From Pelagomonas calceolata (lineage: Eukaryota; Sar; Pelagophyceae; Pelagomonadales; Pelagomonadaceae), in the NCBI GenBank assembly GCA_918797485.1, contig CAKKNE010000001.1, positions 4,340,001-4,404,000 on the forward strand: DNA of 64,000 nt, written 5' to 3'. A program made the translations under genes and the position numbers. A model generated the notes under the pieces. The model was not told where the DNA came from, did no database searches, and saw only the letters and a list, made by a program, of their open reading frames with translations. Below are positions 46,969 to 54,543 of the stretch, piece by piece. The stretch's first letter is position 1. Each line of letters begins with the position of its first letter.

Positions 46969-46975
46969 CACAAGG
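46969..46975. repeat. Left target-site duplication CACAAGG
   Basis: Immediately outside the left inverted repeat; identical to 54537-54543. Confidence 0.75.
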
Positions 46976-47004
46976 CTTGCCTATTTTTTAGCTATTAATT
47001 AAAT
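46976..47004 (+). repeat. Left terminal inverted repeat (29 bp)
   Basis: AT-rich; exact reverse complement of 54508-54536. Confidence 0.95.
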
Positions 47005-47967
47005 CGGTCCGTTTGGCCCAAACCCGAACCTTCGAAATTCCCCTTTTGCTCGGCGCACGCGGCATGGTTGCAGCTTCGGCCGCGCAGGCGTCGTTTCGGG
47101 TCCCTTGGCTTGCGCCTCGTCGCTTACAGCGCTTAAAACGGTGCCGGATTCGCTCGTATTCGAACCTGGGCTCTGCGACGCGAGGCTCCGTAACGCGCCG
47201 CGCTCGCCGCTGAGGGGCGCGCGGGCCGCGCTGACGGCGCGGAGGGGAGGCCCAGGGTCATGTGCGTCGACGCTGCGACCGGCGGCTCCCCTAGGTCTAC
47301 GGCCGGCGACATATCCGTCGGGGCCGAAACGCCGGTTTCGGTCGGACGCGGCCGACGCAGCAGGAGCTGCATTACGGCTGGACGCGACGGTGCCGCGCGA
47401 AGCGTCGCATGTCGGCCGGCAGTCCGACGGCCCGTGAAGGTCGGCGGTGACCGAGGGTCACTTTCCCGCCGTGACCATGGCCTACGAGCGCGAGAAACGG
47501 GTCGCGCGGCGCGCGGGCGGCGACTTCGAGGCGCGGCTCCACGTCGTCGAGCTGGCGACGCGTCGCGTACTGTTCGGGCTCGAGTGAGGGCCACTCGAAG
47601 TGCATCCAAATCCGCGCGGAACGGGTCGCGGTTTCATGACGGTCCCGGCGGAGTCGTTCTGAGGAGCGTGCGTCTGTGCGGAGCAACGTCGGGTGACGGA
47701 AGCCCCACCGCAAGCTGTAGAAACCGCTCGGGTACTTACGGGAGTCGATCGGCCTTGGGCGGGCCGAGGCCGCGAGGGTGTTTTCGGGCGACGGCGTCGG
47801 GCCACGTACTGGCCGTCTTCGCGCCGCAAACCCGTCCCGCGGCCATGGGCTCGTCGGAAGACCGTGGCGCGCGGCTTTGGCAGGGCCGGGCCGCCGCCGC
47901 GCGCGGGGGCCGCGCCCTCTGTAGTTGTGACCCCACTAATTGTATAGAAAGACGTCACAAGAACAGT
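47005..47967. other. Left subterminal region of the mobile element
   Basis: 963 bp of high-GC sequence with overlapping Arg-rich frames in all directions and none convincing. It probably holds the 3' UTR of the 773-residue gene and subterminal binding sites for a transposase. Confidence 0.4.
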
Positions 47968-50289
47968 TTAATCGGCTGGTATGTAGCCAGCCATGCGGCC
48001 GGATTTCGTTGGGCGTTGGTAGATAGGCTCTGGTGGTGGCGTTGGCGGCGGCGGTGGCGGCTCGACGATTGGTGGCGGCGCGGGCGCGGGAACAGGAGCT
48101 GGCGGCGGCGTAGGAGCGGGCGCGGGCGCGGGCGCGGCGCGACCGGCCGGCGGGTTCGAGTAGAGCTGTGTAAAGGCCATGGGATCGTAAACTCGGGTGG
48201 CGGCGCGCGGCGGCGGCGCCTCGGCGGCGATGGTCGCGAGGCCCGCGCCGCGCGCTAACGCGTTGATGGTGTGTGTGGAGATCTCCAGCTCTAGGTGGCC
48301 GCGGTCTCCCACGGCGAAGAGCTCCGGGCGCTTCAGCAGGCTCCGCTGGGACGCCATGCGTCGGCACGCGAGGCGCTCCGCCGCGTCGCGACACGCGACG
48401 ACGAGCGCGTCGCCCGGCGACCGCGAGAGGTAGTCCGCGCGCACGGTCTGCGTCGTGGCGCCGAGGCCCAAGCAGCCCGGCCGCATGACGTGGGTCTCGA
48501 GGAGCATCGCGGCCGTCGCCGTCTGGCGGGCGGCCGGCGCATCTGGAAACAGAGCCTCGGACGCCAGCTTTGTCGCCGTGGCCTCGTCGACCCGCGCGCG
48601 CGCGAGGGCCGCGTCGTAGGCCGCCTGCTCTCGCTCGACGGCGTCCGCGGAGGCCTGGGCTTCCGCGCGCGCCGCGACCTTCCGCGGGTGGTTGTCTGGC
48701 AAAGACCACCAGAGCAGCGAAGCGTCGGACATGCGCTTGCTCGACGCGAGGCGCCCGTCGATGGCCGTGTCCAGCTCGCCTCGGGCCACAAAACACAACC
48801 AGACGTTCGTCGGCTTCGTGACGGGCCTCGCAAGTAGGAAGTGTCGCGGCACGTGCGTCTTGAGCCGCGCGGCGAGCGCCAGCGCGTGGGACACGGCGTC
48901 ACCGGCCCATGCCATCGCGCAGCGGGGCGGCATCCCCGCCGCCAGGTGACCGGAGATCAAAACGACGGTGAACTTCAGGCCAATACCCTTGCTCGCGACC
49001 GTCGTCGAGCCGCCGTCGTGGATGATGCAGAAGTTCTCGCACCGGCGGGCGACCTTGCCGAGCGCCTGGGACCGGATACAGTCGAGGACGCGCAGGGCCT
49101 GGTGTCCCCACGACCCCGAGAACTTCATCTCCTTCGTCGCGCACTTGTCCCGTAGGACAGCCGTCGCCTTGCTCGCGGAGAGCCCGTACGAGGTCAGCAG
49201 GCGGTCCAGCTCGACGATATGGACCACGGGGATCGGCGTCCGCCCGTTCAGTAACGCGTCCGTGGGCAGACCGTCCGTAGGCTGGCGCCGCGCCAGCACG
49301 GCGGCCGCCGTGGCGGCGGCGACGTCTCGCCGTAGGCCGAGAAGCGCTCGTCGAAAGTCGACGATGGGCAAGTTGGACGGAAGCATCGGGAGCCACCCGT
49401 TCGACGCCGCGGCGCGGTCTTTGTAGGTCTTGCGCGCGGCTCGAATGGCTCGGGCCGCTGGTCTCGTGACCCTCCGTTGATTCGGCACCGCGTCCGCGAA
49501 GATCTCCTCGAGTTGCGACCGCGTCATTGCCCAGCCCGTATTCACAAAGTAACGCCGCGCCTCGGCTTCGGCGCGGCCCACGTTCCAGCGTTTTTCCAGG
49601 GCGTGTAGCACAAATTCGTAGGCGGCGGCGGCCTCGAGCGGCGCGCAGACCGACGACGCCGTCGCGAGCGGCGCGGCGCCCGGCGCCTCGGGCGGGACCG
49701 GCGCGATCACGGCGAGCCCTGGTCTTCCGCTCCGCGGCGCGCCCGCGGCCGACGCGGCCGGCGCCCGGGCAACAGGTTGCTGCTGGCGCTGGGCGCCGGT
49801 CGCGGTGGCCTGAGACCGCTTCGGCGCGGTCGTGCGGCCGTCGCGCGCGTTTGGCGCGATCTCGCCCAGCGACTGGCGCCGGGGCGTGGCCGCCGCCCGT
49901 GTTCCGGAAGCGGCAGGCGCGCCCGCGGGTGTAGGCGTCTGCCCCGGGGCGCGCGGCGCGTTCTCGTCGACGCCGCCGCAGCGCGCGAGCGCTCGACTCA
50001 GAACGGCGCGCGTGGCGTCCCAGCAGCGCGTCGTGCTGTTCGTATGAAAGTCCGCCCCGCTCGCCATCACCTCGCCGGGAAAGTTTGCGCCGCACTCCTT
50101 GGAGTGACTTTGTCTGCAAAACCACGACATCCACGCGCTGTAGGCGCCGGGCGAACTGGTGTTCAGTCGCGCCGCGTCGAGGGACACGAGGAGGGCCTGG
50201 CAGCGGTCCTTAGCCCTCATCCGCTGCGGCAGGTCTACGAGCTGCGGGCTGGCGCCAGGACTGAACGGCGTCCCGCTTCGGAGTGCCAT
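47968..50289 (-). CDS. Mobile-element protein A, 773 aa, no known family
   Basis: The ATG at 50289 begins MALRSGTPFSPGASPQL. Near the N-terminus is a Cys/His cluster (WFCRQSHSKECGANF ... FHTNSTTRCW) that could bind zinc. A low-complexity Ala/Pro linker (residues ~100-210) follows. The ordered middle (~215-560) has RRYFVNTGWAMTRSQLEEIF, KEMKFSGSWGHQALRVLD, CENFCIIHDGGSTTVASKGIGLKFTVVLISGHLAAGMPP and NVWLCFVARGELDTAIDGRL. HDGGSTT with surrounding beta-rich sequence could be part of a nuclease fold, but I cannot place a full DDE or tyrosine set. The C-terminus is strongly Pro-rich and ends SGRMAGYIPAD. It is divergent from protein B and inside the TIRs. Confidence 0.75.
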   Translation of the reverse strand: MALRSGTPFSPGASPQLVDLPQRMRAKDRCQALLVSLDAARLNTSSPGAYSAWMSWFCRQSHSKECGANFPGEVMASGADFHTNSTTRCWDATRAVLSRALARCGGVDENAPRAPGQTPTPAGAPAASGTRAAATPRRQSLGEIAPNARDGRTTAPKRSQATATGAQRQQQPVARAPAASAAGAPRSGRPGLAVIAPVPPEAPGAAPLATASSVCAPLEAAAAYEFVLHALEKRWNVGRAEAEARRYFVNTGWAMTRSQLEEIFADAVPNQRRVTRPAARAIRAARKTYKDRAAASNGWLPMLPSNLPIVDFRRALLGLRRDVAAATAAAVLARRQPTDGLPTDALLNGRTPIPVVHIVELDRLLTSYGLSASKATAVLRDKCATKEMKFSGSWGHQALRVLDCIRSQALGKVARRCENFCIIHDGGSTTVASKGIGLKFTVVLISGHLAAGMPPRCAMAWAGDAVSHALALAARLKTHVPRHFLLARPVTKPTNVWLCFVARGELDTAIDGRLASSKRMSDASLLWWSLPDNHPRKVAARAEAQASADAVEREQAAYDAALARARVDEATATKLASEALFPDAPAARQTATAAMLLETHVMRPGCLGLGATTQTVRADYLSRSPGDALVVACRDAAERLACRRMASQRSLLKRPELFAVGDRGHLELEISTHTINALARGAGLATIAAEAPPPRAATRVYDPMAFTQLYSNPPAGRAAPAPAPAPTPPPAPVPAPAPPPIVEPPPPPPTPPPEPIYQRPTKSGRMAGYIPAD

Positions 50290-50508
50290 GGGTCACAGAG
50301 CCGCCGCTACGCACAAATGGCCCCCCAGCGGGGCCCCTGCGGCCGTGAGAGCTGACAACGGAGAGAGCAAATACCCGTCCCGAGTCAAACGGCCGCGCGG
50401 AGCACGCAGGCTTCGACAGAGGCGTCCGAAGGACGCGTCTGAACGCGTGGCTTCGTCGTTGCTGCCGAACGGGAGGCAGGAAAAAATGAGGCCAAGCTTT
50501 GCAGGACA

Positions 50509-53500
50509 ATGCAGGACCCCACCGACGCTCCTGAGGCACCGGGGTACGAAGTGCGAGTCGTAGTCGTCGGTCCGAACGTCGTGCTACGCCTGAAAGCCAT
50601 CCCTAGTTGGCCTGTGTCGTTTCTGAAGCAGGTCCTAGCCAATGCTCTCGTGGAGATTGCGGAGTTGCCCGGCCTCGAAACAGCCGAAAATGTGGTCCCG
50701 AGGATGCGCCTTGGGCGCCTGGAGTACAGCTTCAACGACGCCAACCAGCTTTGGATGTATGGACTGGGCACGGCTCCGGGACGGCCGCTCTGGATCGAGC
50801 TGCGCGGCGTCGGCGCGCAGTCTTATACCGTGGGTTCGAACGAGCCGGGCGAGTCCAGCTTCTGGGCGCCTCTGGCCGGGCGCGTCCATCGAGGCGGCAC
50901 CGAGACCGGCCAGAGCATTACCGACAACATCGTCGAGGCGTGCGACGCCGTTCTAGGTACCGAAGAGATGGACTGGGTTCTGGCGGAAACGGTGGCGGTC
51001 ACGGCGGACGGCGCGGCCACCGCTCAAAAAGCGCGGTACTGGTTGGAAGCGATGAAGGCCAACGGGTCCACGGAAGCTAGCTCTGGAGTTATGGGCATCG
51101 TGGCCGTCCGCGTCCGCGACGCGCCCCTGCGCGACGACGATCCTCCGCAGGTATGTGGCTGCCACATCGTGCACGACGGTGTGTGCTACGCATGTGTGGC
51201 CGGCTCGCATCGCCACCCGACGTGGAACCGCCAGAACAACAATTCGGTCCTCGTTTACAACCTCGAGTACGTCGCCCCGTGTAAACGGAACTTCGACGTG
51301 TCGCCGCGACGCCGCGACGGCGTCCGCGCGACGCCACGCCACGAAGACGCCGCGCGCAACTTCAATGAGAGCGCGCCGCTACGGATTGGCGCACGCGCGC
51401 GTCCGACGCGAGGCCGACGCAGGCATGTTTCCAACTATCTCCACAACAACTTCCCCGAGCTCGAGCTCGAGGGCATCATCCCGTACTGCCCCATGGGCCA
51501 AGAAACGCGCTGGGGCACGTTCATCTCCGTAGCGTGCTACCTCGTCTCGTTTCGCTCCCTGCTCATCGCGGCCGTCCGGGGCCTCTTCGCGCGGCGCGGA
51601 ACCACCAGCGTCGCGTCCGACGCGAACGCCCGGCTCCTGGAGGTCATGCTCACGGACCCCTCCATGTACATGCAGCTCGTGGTCCTCGCGGAGTTCGGCT
51701 TAGGCGTCGCGATGCCTTTTATTATGTGGATGCAGCAACGGCACGGCCACCGCGCGATGGTCGCCCCACCGGCGTTCAAGCTCGAGTCGCCTTCACATTG
51801 GGAGTCACACTCCCCGCCGTCGACGCGACGGCGCGATCGCCCTGACTGCGTCCGTTCGAATGCTCGGGGTTTTCCAGGACCGCGGTCGACGTACCACAGG
51901 AGATCCACTCCCAAATCCTCAAGCACCTCACATTGTGTGGGAGCGTGCTCGCAGAGCCCGCCAATTTCTTCGCGAACGCGTACCACGAGGCCGCGGCCGT
52001 CGGGTTCTCCGCCGCGGCGCTCGCCGCGGTCGTCAAGAGCATCGTCCAGCCCTACGAGAAGTACATCTCGAACCGCCTCTCGTTCTGGTTTCGCTTGCCC
52101 TTCGCCTGGCCGCTCCTCTGCGACGAGGACTACGGCCTCGGCTTCGCCAAGGCCCTCGTGGACTTGGTCGCGAAAGGGGTCCTCAAGGGCGTCACGGGCA
52201 CCAAGGTCGACCAGTGCGGCATCCTCGGCGACCAGGCCCTCTGGGGCATGGTCTGCCGCTTCGCCGAGGGCCACGAGGCCCTCGCGGAGGAGGCCCGCGA
52301 CAGAGTCATTCTTACACCGCGGCCCGCGCCATCGACCATGCCTGCTCGATCTCTCCGCACTCACACACAAAAACGCGACGCGCGCGCGCGACGCGCGCGC
52401 GCACGCCTCGAAAAACGCCACCGCGACGCGCGGCTTCCCCCGCCCGAGGCGCGGCCGGCCATCACCGCGACGTCGCGCAGGTCGTCTCCGCCATCATCAA
52501 GGTCTTCGACCACATCCCCATCCACTCGGCGCTCGCGGAGATCGCCGTCAAGGCGTGCCGCAACGCGGACATCAACGAGCTCCTGCACCAGGTCGGCTTC
52601 GGCGCCGCCATGCGACGCGCCCTCCTCGAGTTCCGGCTCGACGATTTTGTCACGGAGAAGGCCGCGTCCGACGCGCGCCGCGACCTCACGCGCCAGGATC
52701 TCGACCGGCGCTCCGTCTTGGAGAAGCGCCAGGCCGAGGTGCGCGACGCGCTGTGCACCACGCACGAGGCGCTCTTCGGCGACAACGCGGACCCGGTCGC
52801 CGTGTGCGAGCGCCTCGCCCAAGAGAGCAGCGCGTACTACCGCGGCGACGCGGCGTCCGTCGAGGGCCAGCTCGACCGCCTCGGCCTCGACGACGCCGCC
52901 GCGGCGCCCCCGACCAACAGGGAGGCGAGGGAGGCGGCGTTCCAGGCGTCGTCGTGGCGCCTGCTCGAGCCGCTCGCGCCGGTGCTCCTCTTCGTCTTCC
53001 AGCAGCTCGTCCTCGACCGCTGCATCAACAACAGCGACGTTCCGGCGCATCTCGCGTGGGTCCTCGCGCGGGCGCCGGCCGCGGAGGACGACACCCCCGA
53101 CAAGGTGACGTGCCGCTTCTGTTCGCGGGCCTGGACATCGGCACGCGGCGCCCGCGGCGCCTGTGCGCACGTCCTCAAGGACCACATCCACCTCAAGGGC
53201 CCGCGCGCCCTCGGCTTCTTCCAGCTCCTCGTCGGCGACGGCCTCGAAGCGTACGAGCTGCCCGAGACCACCGTCGTCCACGTCTTCGACTACGCCACGG
53301 CCACCCCGCTCACGTTCCTGGACGCCTACGTCGTGCCCAAGGTCCTGCCGGCGCTGATCACGGTCTTCGGCCAGGCGCGGGCCCACCACCAGTCCGACGC
53401 GACCGAGCCGCTGGACCTGGTCGCCGCCCTGCGCGCCCAGTTCCCGCCGGCGCCCCCCGCGAAGCCGCCGACGCGGTCGTACCTCGACGCGCTCGTCGCG

Positions 53501-53764
53501 CGCCACGCCGCCGCCGGAGATGATCTCGAGGAACCGCCCCGAGCCGCCCTCGTGGACGTCGTGAAGTTCCTGCCCGCGCTCGTCATCACGAAGCTCGTCG
53601 GCGCCGCCGACCCAGCCGCGCCGCTGGCGCCGGCCCAAGTCCGGGACCGCGAGACCCTCCTGACGCTCAACGCCGGCGTCAATGAGGACCTGGCGCACCC
53701 CGAGCACCGCGCGCTCACACCTAGCGTGAGCCCGGCCGACCGCTTCCCGGCCGACCGGCCTTAG
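50509..53764 (+). CDS. Mobile-element protein B, ~983 aa, three exons, no known family
   Basis: Exons 50509-51771, 51900-52304 and 52481-53764 give 983 residues in one frame. The N-terminal ~100 residues (YEVRVVVVGPNVVLRLKAIPSW) look folded and beta-rich; AETVAVTADGAATAQKARYW follows near 165-185. A Cys/His cluster, CGCHIVHDGVCYACVAGSHRH, lies near 218-240. After it come predicted helices (SVACYLVSFRSLLIAAVRGLF). Exon 3 has a likely BED/C2H2-type finger, CRFCSRAW ... CAHVLKDHIH, near residue 765. Such fingers are common in transposases, but no catalytic triad is obvious. Intron 2 (52305-52480, GT-AG) is clear by frame and removes a GC-rich stretch; intron 1 (51772-51899, GC-AG) is tentative. 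Confidence 0.65.
51772..51899 (+). mobile_element. Possible introner (GC-AG) in mobile-element gene B
   Basis: This 128-nt segment shifts the frame and ends CCACAG before GAGATCCAC. GCGTTCAA at its start matches 5 of 8 bases of the following exon. It has the GCCGTCGACGCGACGG core. The donor is inferred from phase. Confidence 0.5.
52305..52480 (+). mobile_element. Intron with introner core in mobile-element gene B
   Basis: A 176-nt GT-AG intron in phase 0 joins ARDR to VVSAII. It carries CGCGCCATCGACCATGCC-type core sequence and long CGCG runs, but its ends are diverged (4 of 8 for the duplication). Confidence 0.6.
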
Positions 53765-54507
53765 CTCCCTCCCGCGCGCCTCGTCCAAAGCCCCGTGATC
53801 AAATCCGGCCGGCAAGCGCCCCCGACGGGGGGTTAGACCCGCGCGGGGCCAGTAGGGTAATTGTTGTTTCTTTGAGTACAGCTGTCGGCCACGGTGAGAG
53901 GCGCGCGCGGCCGGCGCGCGCGGTGCTCTCCTCGAGGAAGACTCCGCGACCGCGAACAGCACGATCACGGCCACCGCGGCGCCCGAACTCATTTGCGCCC
54001 TCGACGCCTTCGCCATCGCGGCCGCCGTAGCGCCGCGGCTCCGCCGCCGAGCCCGGCTCACACCCTGGACCGTCGGCGCGGCACGCGCTGGCGCGATTCA
54101 ATCCCCGCAGGAGGCCTCGCCGCCCTCGTCCGCCGTCGCCGCCGCTCCGCCGCAGGGCGCACGCAAAAAGCCCGAGCCGGCGCCGGCGGCCGTTTCGAGG
54201 CGACACACGCTCGCGCGCAGCCGCGGAACCGCTCGCGCCCAGCCCCGGCGACGTGGTCAACCCACGGTATCGGTCCTGGGGTCGCGCGACGCTCCTAGGC
54301 TAAGGCCGGCGGCAGCGCAGGCGTCGCACACGAGAATGGCTCGTTCTCGGCGTCCGCCGCCGCAGATCTCACAAAACTTTGACGGAGGCTCGTCGAGAGG
54401 TCAAAGATGACGATCCCAATCGCTCATCCCTCTACGATGCGCAGCGGCCGTGAACGGGACGTTTTTGTCAAAAGCGAGGCGGCAGCGAGCCGCAGCGAAA
54501 CCACGCA
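53765..54507. other. Right subterminal region of the mobile element
   Basis: 743 bp after the stop of gene B. It has several Arg/Ala-rich frames of low quality and a small inverted repeat, CGAGAA...TTCTCG, near 54329-54347. No gene is supported. Confidence 0.4.
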
Positions 54508-54536
54508 ATTTAATTAATAGCTAAAAAATAGGCAAG
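54508..54536 (-). repeat. Right terminal inverted repeat (29 bp)
   Basis: Exact reverse complement of 46976-47004. Confidence 0.95.
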
Positions 54537-54543
54537 CACAAGG
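54537..54543. repeat. Right target-site duplication CACAAGG
   Basis: Directly follows the right inverted repeat; identical to 46969-46975. The rest of the gap to 54853 shows no gene. Confidence 0.75.

Follow-up and report, generated by a model that had tools for sequence, protein, structure and literature searches.

A two-gene element with perfect terminal inverted repeats in Pelagomonas calceolata belongs to an old, low-copy family and encodes a probable transposase

A 64,000-nucleotide stretch of the Pelagomonas calceolata genome (assembly GCA_918797485.1, contig CAKKNE010000001.1; C1:4340001-4404000 in our contig numbering, hereafter the window) contains two divergent genes, A and B, enclosed by perfect terminal inverted repeats (TIRs). 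It raises the question of whether this segment is an inserted mobile element and, if so, which protein moves it. The segment belongs to a real, old, low-copy family of two-gene elements, because the same genome holds a second complete element as well as three relics consisting of ends only, and because the copies have diverged strongly. Our preferred reading, to which we assign a probability of about 0.57, is that the segment is an autonomous DNA transposon that moves by cut-and-paste and represents an undescribed low-copy family. In it, B would be a DDE (aspartate-aspartate-glutamate) transposase working in the manner of hAT enzymes and A would be a required partner.

We searched the entire genome (32,445,274 bases on eight contigs) for further copies. 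Allowing <=3 mismatches, a 23-mer of the TIR was found at six places (four exact, two with 3 mismatches): the pair in the window, a pair 7.5 kb apart on C5, and one place each on C4 and C1. Outside the window element it recurs at four places, two of them exact and two with 3 mismatches. A chance origin of the TIR was ruled out, as the 23-mer read backward occurs at 0 places in the genome. A 19-mer gave ten places, the same six as exact matches and four with 3 mismatches. Because the latter do not rise above the backward control (5 places), only the exact 19-mer places were counted.

The C5 pair bounds another 7.5-kb element (C5:3387497-3395022) that has the TIR core in common with the window element and likewise carries two divergent genes. 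Its products share 36% (A, 713 aligned codons) and 42% (B, 881 codons) amino acid identity with those of the window element. Codon positions 1 and 2 are 52-62% identical, where composition alone predicts 26-29%, and genes A and B are therefore under constraint. Third positions are identical in 49% (A) and 51% (B) of cases against an expectation of 36-41%; the two elements are therefore old relatives rather than recent duplicates. The C5 element retains its TIRs, but one end is damaged and no target duplication is visible, so a comparison of duplications between copies yielded 7 bp at the window copy and none at the other. The recent movement proposed initially fits the window copy with its perfect ends and direct repeat, but not the family as a whole, which is old by its third positions and by the damaged C5 end. 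With a 243-aa piece of A as query, matches were found in the window and on C5; pieces of B retrieved both elements and, in addition, a distant homologue on C4. Such searches by sequence pieces give lower bounds.

The non-coding ends are also shared by the two elements (identities in Table 1). The left end was compared over 990 bp and over its outer 500 bp, the right end over 688 bp (678 aligned). At the right end, mismatch rates by phase (0.26, 0.26 and 0.22) reveal no clear codon periodicity, and its identity lies far above that of third codon positions. This comparison is compatible either with long binding regions at the ends or with an exchange of right ends by recombination. In Hermes, ends of ~450 bp carry subterminal repeats that are bound by the BED finger (excerpts of PMC10368747).

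Three end-only relics lie on C4, C1 and C2. The C4 relic (L015:7850-8490, C4:3270480 region) matches the left end of the C5 element at 91% over 383 bp, after which the match stops. Directly outside its tip lies the 12-mer CCCCCCCTTGAG, which by eye is repeated ~0.6 kb inward, past a short open frame. On C1, an orphan TIR fragment (L016:8484-8511, C1:4866007) gives a 25-bp match with no subterminal similarity; an ATG lying ~0.25 kb downstream of it resembles, by eye, the start of an actin-related protein. The C2 relic (C2:4965245-4965391; L056/L057) consists of 147 bp of the right subterminal region at 75% identity, without TIR.

At the window element itself, the two TIR arms are complementary at 29 of 29 positions and the 7-bp repeat CACAAGG abuts both outer ends, exactly as first described; a 7-bp match abutting both ends has a chance probability of ~6e-5 (4^-7). 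The termini read CTTGCC. One extra complementary G/C pair lies directly outside the 29-bp TIR, and the ends can also be read as a TIR of 30 bp flanked by a 5-bp duplication, ACAAG. Read inward, the seven bases outside the TIR are CCTTGTG at the right end of the window element, CCTTGAG at the C4 relic and CCCTTGG at the right end of the C5 element. Comparison of these three sites, made with no formal test, suggests a target preference near CCTTGnG. Because the flanks at all three ends point to such a target, we favour the 7-bp over the 5-bp duplication. At the left end of the C5 element and at the place on C1, the CTTG of CTTGCC is gone and the flanks fit no CCTTGnG pattern.

Gene B was modelled by comparison with its C5 copy, and the length of ~983 residues estimated initially gave way to a prediction of five exons and 910 amino acids. 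A single-exon frame of 1004 aa was dropped, as the C5 copy shows introns. The introns in the window are 51, 156, 140 and 176 nt long and all GT-AG, while the model of the C5 copy has three introns, the last one uncertain. The BED-like finger mentioned in the initial annotation was found in both copies as a CCHH finger near the C-terminus (residues 694-718 of 910 in the window copy).

The profile of B identified a C4 gene, B', with an E-value of 3.3e-13 among the 1084 open reading frames of the fetched loci. The scored stretch covers profile positions 215-453, from the CxxH motif (215) onward and including the RW motif (282), and leaves outside the second aspartate (D2; 183), the N-terminal part (up to 115) and E533 (551). 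By this score B' is a distant homologue of B, significant from CxxH onward only. A multiple alignment of the three B proteins showed D167, G168, C199, H202, H205, D206, E263-T264-R265-W266-G267 and E533 to be invariant; for D2 and E533, invariance in 3/3 proteins comes from this alignment only.

These residues follow the order seen in hAT transposases. The pattern D[GNS][AGS][AGS]..C..H..R[WF][GDNS] occurs in 2/2 B proteins of the elements (spans of 101 and 100 aa) and in 2/2 hAT proteins from this genome (98 and 90 aa). Shuffling the two B proteins 100,000 times produced it 55 and 47 times, figures that flatter it, as the pattern was composed after the sequences were known. The initial annotation had seen no known transposase core. 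This is only partly right: no Pfam model exceeded its cut-off, but B does carry a string of hAT-type motifs whose order and spacing agree with hAT, and is probably the transposase.

Below the cut-off, Pfam listed DUF7525 (E 1) and NirdL-like_HTH (E 0.19) for B, three finger or unknown models (E 0.1-0.18) for its finger alone, and a weak C2H2 match (E 0.1) for the C5 copy. Aligned with the N-terminus of B', those of the window and C5 proteins share nine invariant positions with it (V, V, L, K, L, D, L, Y, G). Against the ubiquitin family PF00240, the isolated N-terminus of B' scores E 0.0029 over positions 6-67 of 72 and the whole frame E 0.16, both below the cut-off. We consider a ubiquitin-like domain at the N-terminus of B probable.

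The first catalytic aspartate is less clearly placed. Kat1 has the triad D310, D377 and E895, with a spacing of 67 between the first and second Asp, and requires its CxxH for hairpin formation (excerpts of PMC4763223), and in Dada the spacing is 68 (D567/D635; excerpts of PMC3706591). For the genome's two hAT proteins we read spacings of 72 and 68. At 67-72 residues before D2, no column of the multiple alignment is acidic in 3/3 B proteins. Columns acidic in all three upstream of D167 are 60, 77, 112, 143 and 146. Nearest to the usual spacing are D77, 86-93 residues away within the ubiquitin-like stretch, and E/D/D at 112, 49-57 residues away. Acids near the usual spacing also occur singly, namely E97 in window B (70 from D2) and D77 in B' (74 from D2), while C5 B has no acid 57 to 78 residues before D2. 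D77 of B was dropped as a candidate, because in the alignment it falls on the ubiquitin motif of B'.

Gene A encodes 773 residues in an open frame on the minus strand, in agreement with the initial annotation. Its conserved blocks are WLP..LPIVDFRR, FCIIHDGGSTT (with Asp 425) and PPRCAMAWAG. In the block FCIIHDGGSTTVASKG, the residues I, H, D, G, G, S, T and T are kept in the window and C5 copies, which spell the HDGGST block FCIIHDGGSTT and YVIHDGGSTT. The HDGGST codons of the C5 copy are split by one GC-AG intron (L014:2847-2976), whereas the window copy has none. A protein database search returned a single relative, P0001 from a JGI contig, and its 95% identity to gene A indicates that another variant of the gene exists in nature. 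For A, none of the Pfam models scored as high as its cut-off. The C-terminal half of A looks HMG-box-like by eye only, and Pfam finds no HMG box there.

On C4, B' is preceded by a gene on the same strand carrying TITSDAGSQT (adjacent pair at L054:5404-9591 and L055:768-3421; C4:3367404-3372421). This neighbour, 0.2-0.4 kb upstream of B', contains DVTITSDAGSQTIAG and matches the HMG box PF00505 at E 8e-4 (frame) and 2e-4 (fragment), below the cut-off. No terminal repeats were recognised around the pair, which may represent a domesticated or an older relative, or else a single spliced gene. In whole-length alignments to the neighbour, the C5 A protein was matched by 1/300 shuffles and window A by 70/300, and profiles of A gave nothing against it at E<=100. 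We regard the likeness of gene A to this neighbour as a lead, not as demonstrated homology.

From these observations we propose the following mechanism. B would act as a DDE enzyme in the manner of hAT, using D167, C199/H202, RW at 265-266 and the Glu candidate E533. It would bind the long subterminal ends through its C-terminal CCHH finger, cut at the TIR tips and join the ends to the target with a 7-bp stagger. Since both elements have kept A, we more tentatively regard it as a required partner, which probably binds DNA and may supply, through HDGGST, the first Asp that B seems to lack. Several results weigh against this proposal. The duplication measures 7 bp instead of 8 and was found at a single insertion; the finger of B is C-terminal, in contrast to the N-terminal BED finger of hAT; and B gave no Pfam match at cut-off level. 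Two open genes of the genome pass the hAT PF05699 cut-off (L032, C4:4499982; L033, C5:1221320), yet all 20/20 comparisons of A, B and the C4 counterparts with these proteins (8/8 and 12/12) were not significant, the best being equalled by 82/1000 shuffles. An hhalign comparison of B with one of them gave a probability of 0.7%. B profiles found nothing in PDB at E<=10, and both AlphaFold models are of low confidence (mean predicted local distance difference test 44.8 and 33.9, 4 rows each).

The placement of the first acid separates the two readings that also make B a DDE enzyme. B alone might be a complete, very diverged transposase of hAT-like (or P-, Dada- or MuDR-like) type whose first acid is shifted or poorly conserved (E/D112, or E97 in the window copy), leaving A as an accessory DNA-binding or target-choosing protein. 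We rate this as falling just short of an even chance: B holds the remaining motifs, and PIF/Harbinger, CACTA and MuDR are two-gene DNA transposons with a transposase and an accessory protein, but it would be unusual to have a spacing of 49-57 and, in the window copy, Glu in the place of Asp, and E97 is not shared. Alternatively, the DDE core might be divided over the divergent genes, with the first Asp in A, the second Asp, CxxH, RW and Glu in a B tagged by a ubiquitin fold, and both halves having to assemble before cutting. The missing shared acid at the known spacings of 67-72 in three B proteins, the invariant, strand-like HDGGSTT block of A, and the TITSDAGSQT gene with its weak HMG-box match ahead of B' all point this way. 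Even so, we think such a division unlikely, since single B proteins do have acids near the usual spacing (E97 in the window, D77 in B'), A profiles miss the C4 neighbour with only one of the two shuffle tests suggestive, the Asp of A could sit in any fold, and the two C4 frames might be one spliced gene.

That no Pfam transposase model matched would also suit a mobile element without DDE chemistry, such as a tyrosine recombinase or virus-like element. This is quite improbable given the TIR with its 7-bp direct repeat, the hAT-like motif string and the result that Pfam listed neither capsid nor polymerase nor recombinase models at E<=10 for A or B. Finally, just two full copies were found and their genes are open, as would be the case for a conserved host gene pair lying between chance repeats. 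The same TIR, however, bounds two unlinked, strongly diverged gene pairs and recurs in end-only relics against a backward control of 0, which makes a host gene pair the least probable of these explanations.

With this element the eukaryotic DNA transposons gain a family of two-gene elements that is unassigned to any superfamily, in an alga that ranks among the most abundant of the ocean. If the divided core were true, two proteins encoded by separate genes would share one transposase active site, which would amount to a natural two-key control over transposition. The family might also bear on which transposases drive the introner elements mentioned in the P. calceolata genome paper (excerpts of PMC9481584).

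Table 1 Features of the window element, in window coordinates.
Feature	Position	Strand	Basis
Left copy of 7-bp direct repeat CACAAGG (target site duplication)	46969..46975	.	sequence
Left terminal inverted repeat, 29 bp	46976..47004	+	pairs with right arm, 29/29
Left subterminal non-coding region	46976..47475	.	63% identical to C5 (60% over 46976-47965)
Gene A, 773 aa, one exon	47968..50289	-	open frame; C5 comparison
Intergenic space of 219 bp between divergent starts, presumed two-way promoter	50290..50508	.	gene models
Gene B exon 1: probable ubiquitin-like N-terminus (~residues 1-102), second catalytic Asp candidate D167	50509..51099	+	
Gene B exon 2: CxxH (C199, H202)	51151..51266	+	preceding 51-nt intron inferred from C5 copy
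Gene B exon 3: ETRWG (R265, W266)	51423..51759	+	
Gene B exon 4	51900..52304	+	
Gene B exon 5: Glu candidate E533, CCHH (BED-like) finger residues 694-718, stop	52481..53764	+	
Right subterminal non-coding region	53850..54536	.	75% identical to C5, no codon periodicity
Right terminal inverted repeat, 29 bp	54508..54536	-	pairs with left arm
Right copy of 7-bp direct repeat CACAAGG	54537..54543	.	sequence

The initial annotation had considered a new superfamily or a diverged branch of hAT, KDZ or CACTA. An inserted element of a family unnamed in the sources searched is what we find, because there are a second complete element, three relics and no Pfam match above cut-off; membership in hAT, KDZ or CACTA was not demonstrated. 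Among the titles and abstract beginnings listed by literature searches on pelagophyte transposons, surveys of superfamilies, hAT motifs, split or two-subunit transposases and the domain combination, none describes the element. For KDZ, the transposase domain PF18758 had no match in the genome, though this family matched no control either. PIF/Harbinger, CACTA and MuDR share with the window element a transposase plus a second protein and differ from it in TIRs and in duplication length (3, 3 and 9 bp), and Pfam listed no model of theirs for either protein. CACTA termini begin with CACT(A/G) next to a 3-bp duplication, in contrast to CTTGCC and a 7-bp repeat here.

The likeness to hAT (Hermes, Kat1) consists of the second Asp, CxxH, RW(G/D/N) and a distant Glu candidate in the same order in B, with D2-CxxH-RW also matching in spacing by the pattern composed after the sequences were known, together with a zinc finger and long subterminal regions. 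From W266 to E533 in B there are 267 residues, and 253 from W319 to E572 in Hermes, taking E572 as its Glu. Differences are the 7-bp (or 5-bp) duplication against 8 bp, the second gene, the lack of a shared first acid at 67-72, and the absence of PF05699, the hAT C-terminal dimerisation domain, from the Pfam scans at E<=10. Because the tested defining features of hAT were not found, we do not file the window element under hAT despite its hAT-type motifs. Dada was compared by its description only (excerpts of PMC3706591). Dada elements with clear termini all lie inside small RNA genes, while Rfam at gathering score gave no match in the window or the C5 locus L014, and Dada-U6 and Dada-U1 are without TIRs, whereas the window element has one of 29 bp. 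With Dada it shares, on the other hand, a DxxH (CxxH-type) core, a duplication length in the range of 6-7 bp and a C-terminal zinc finger.

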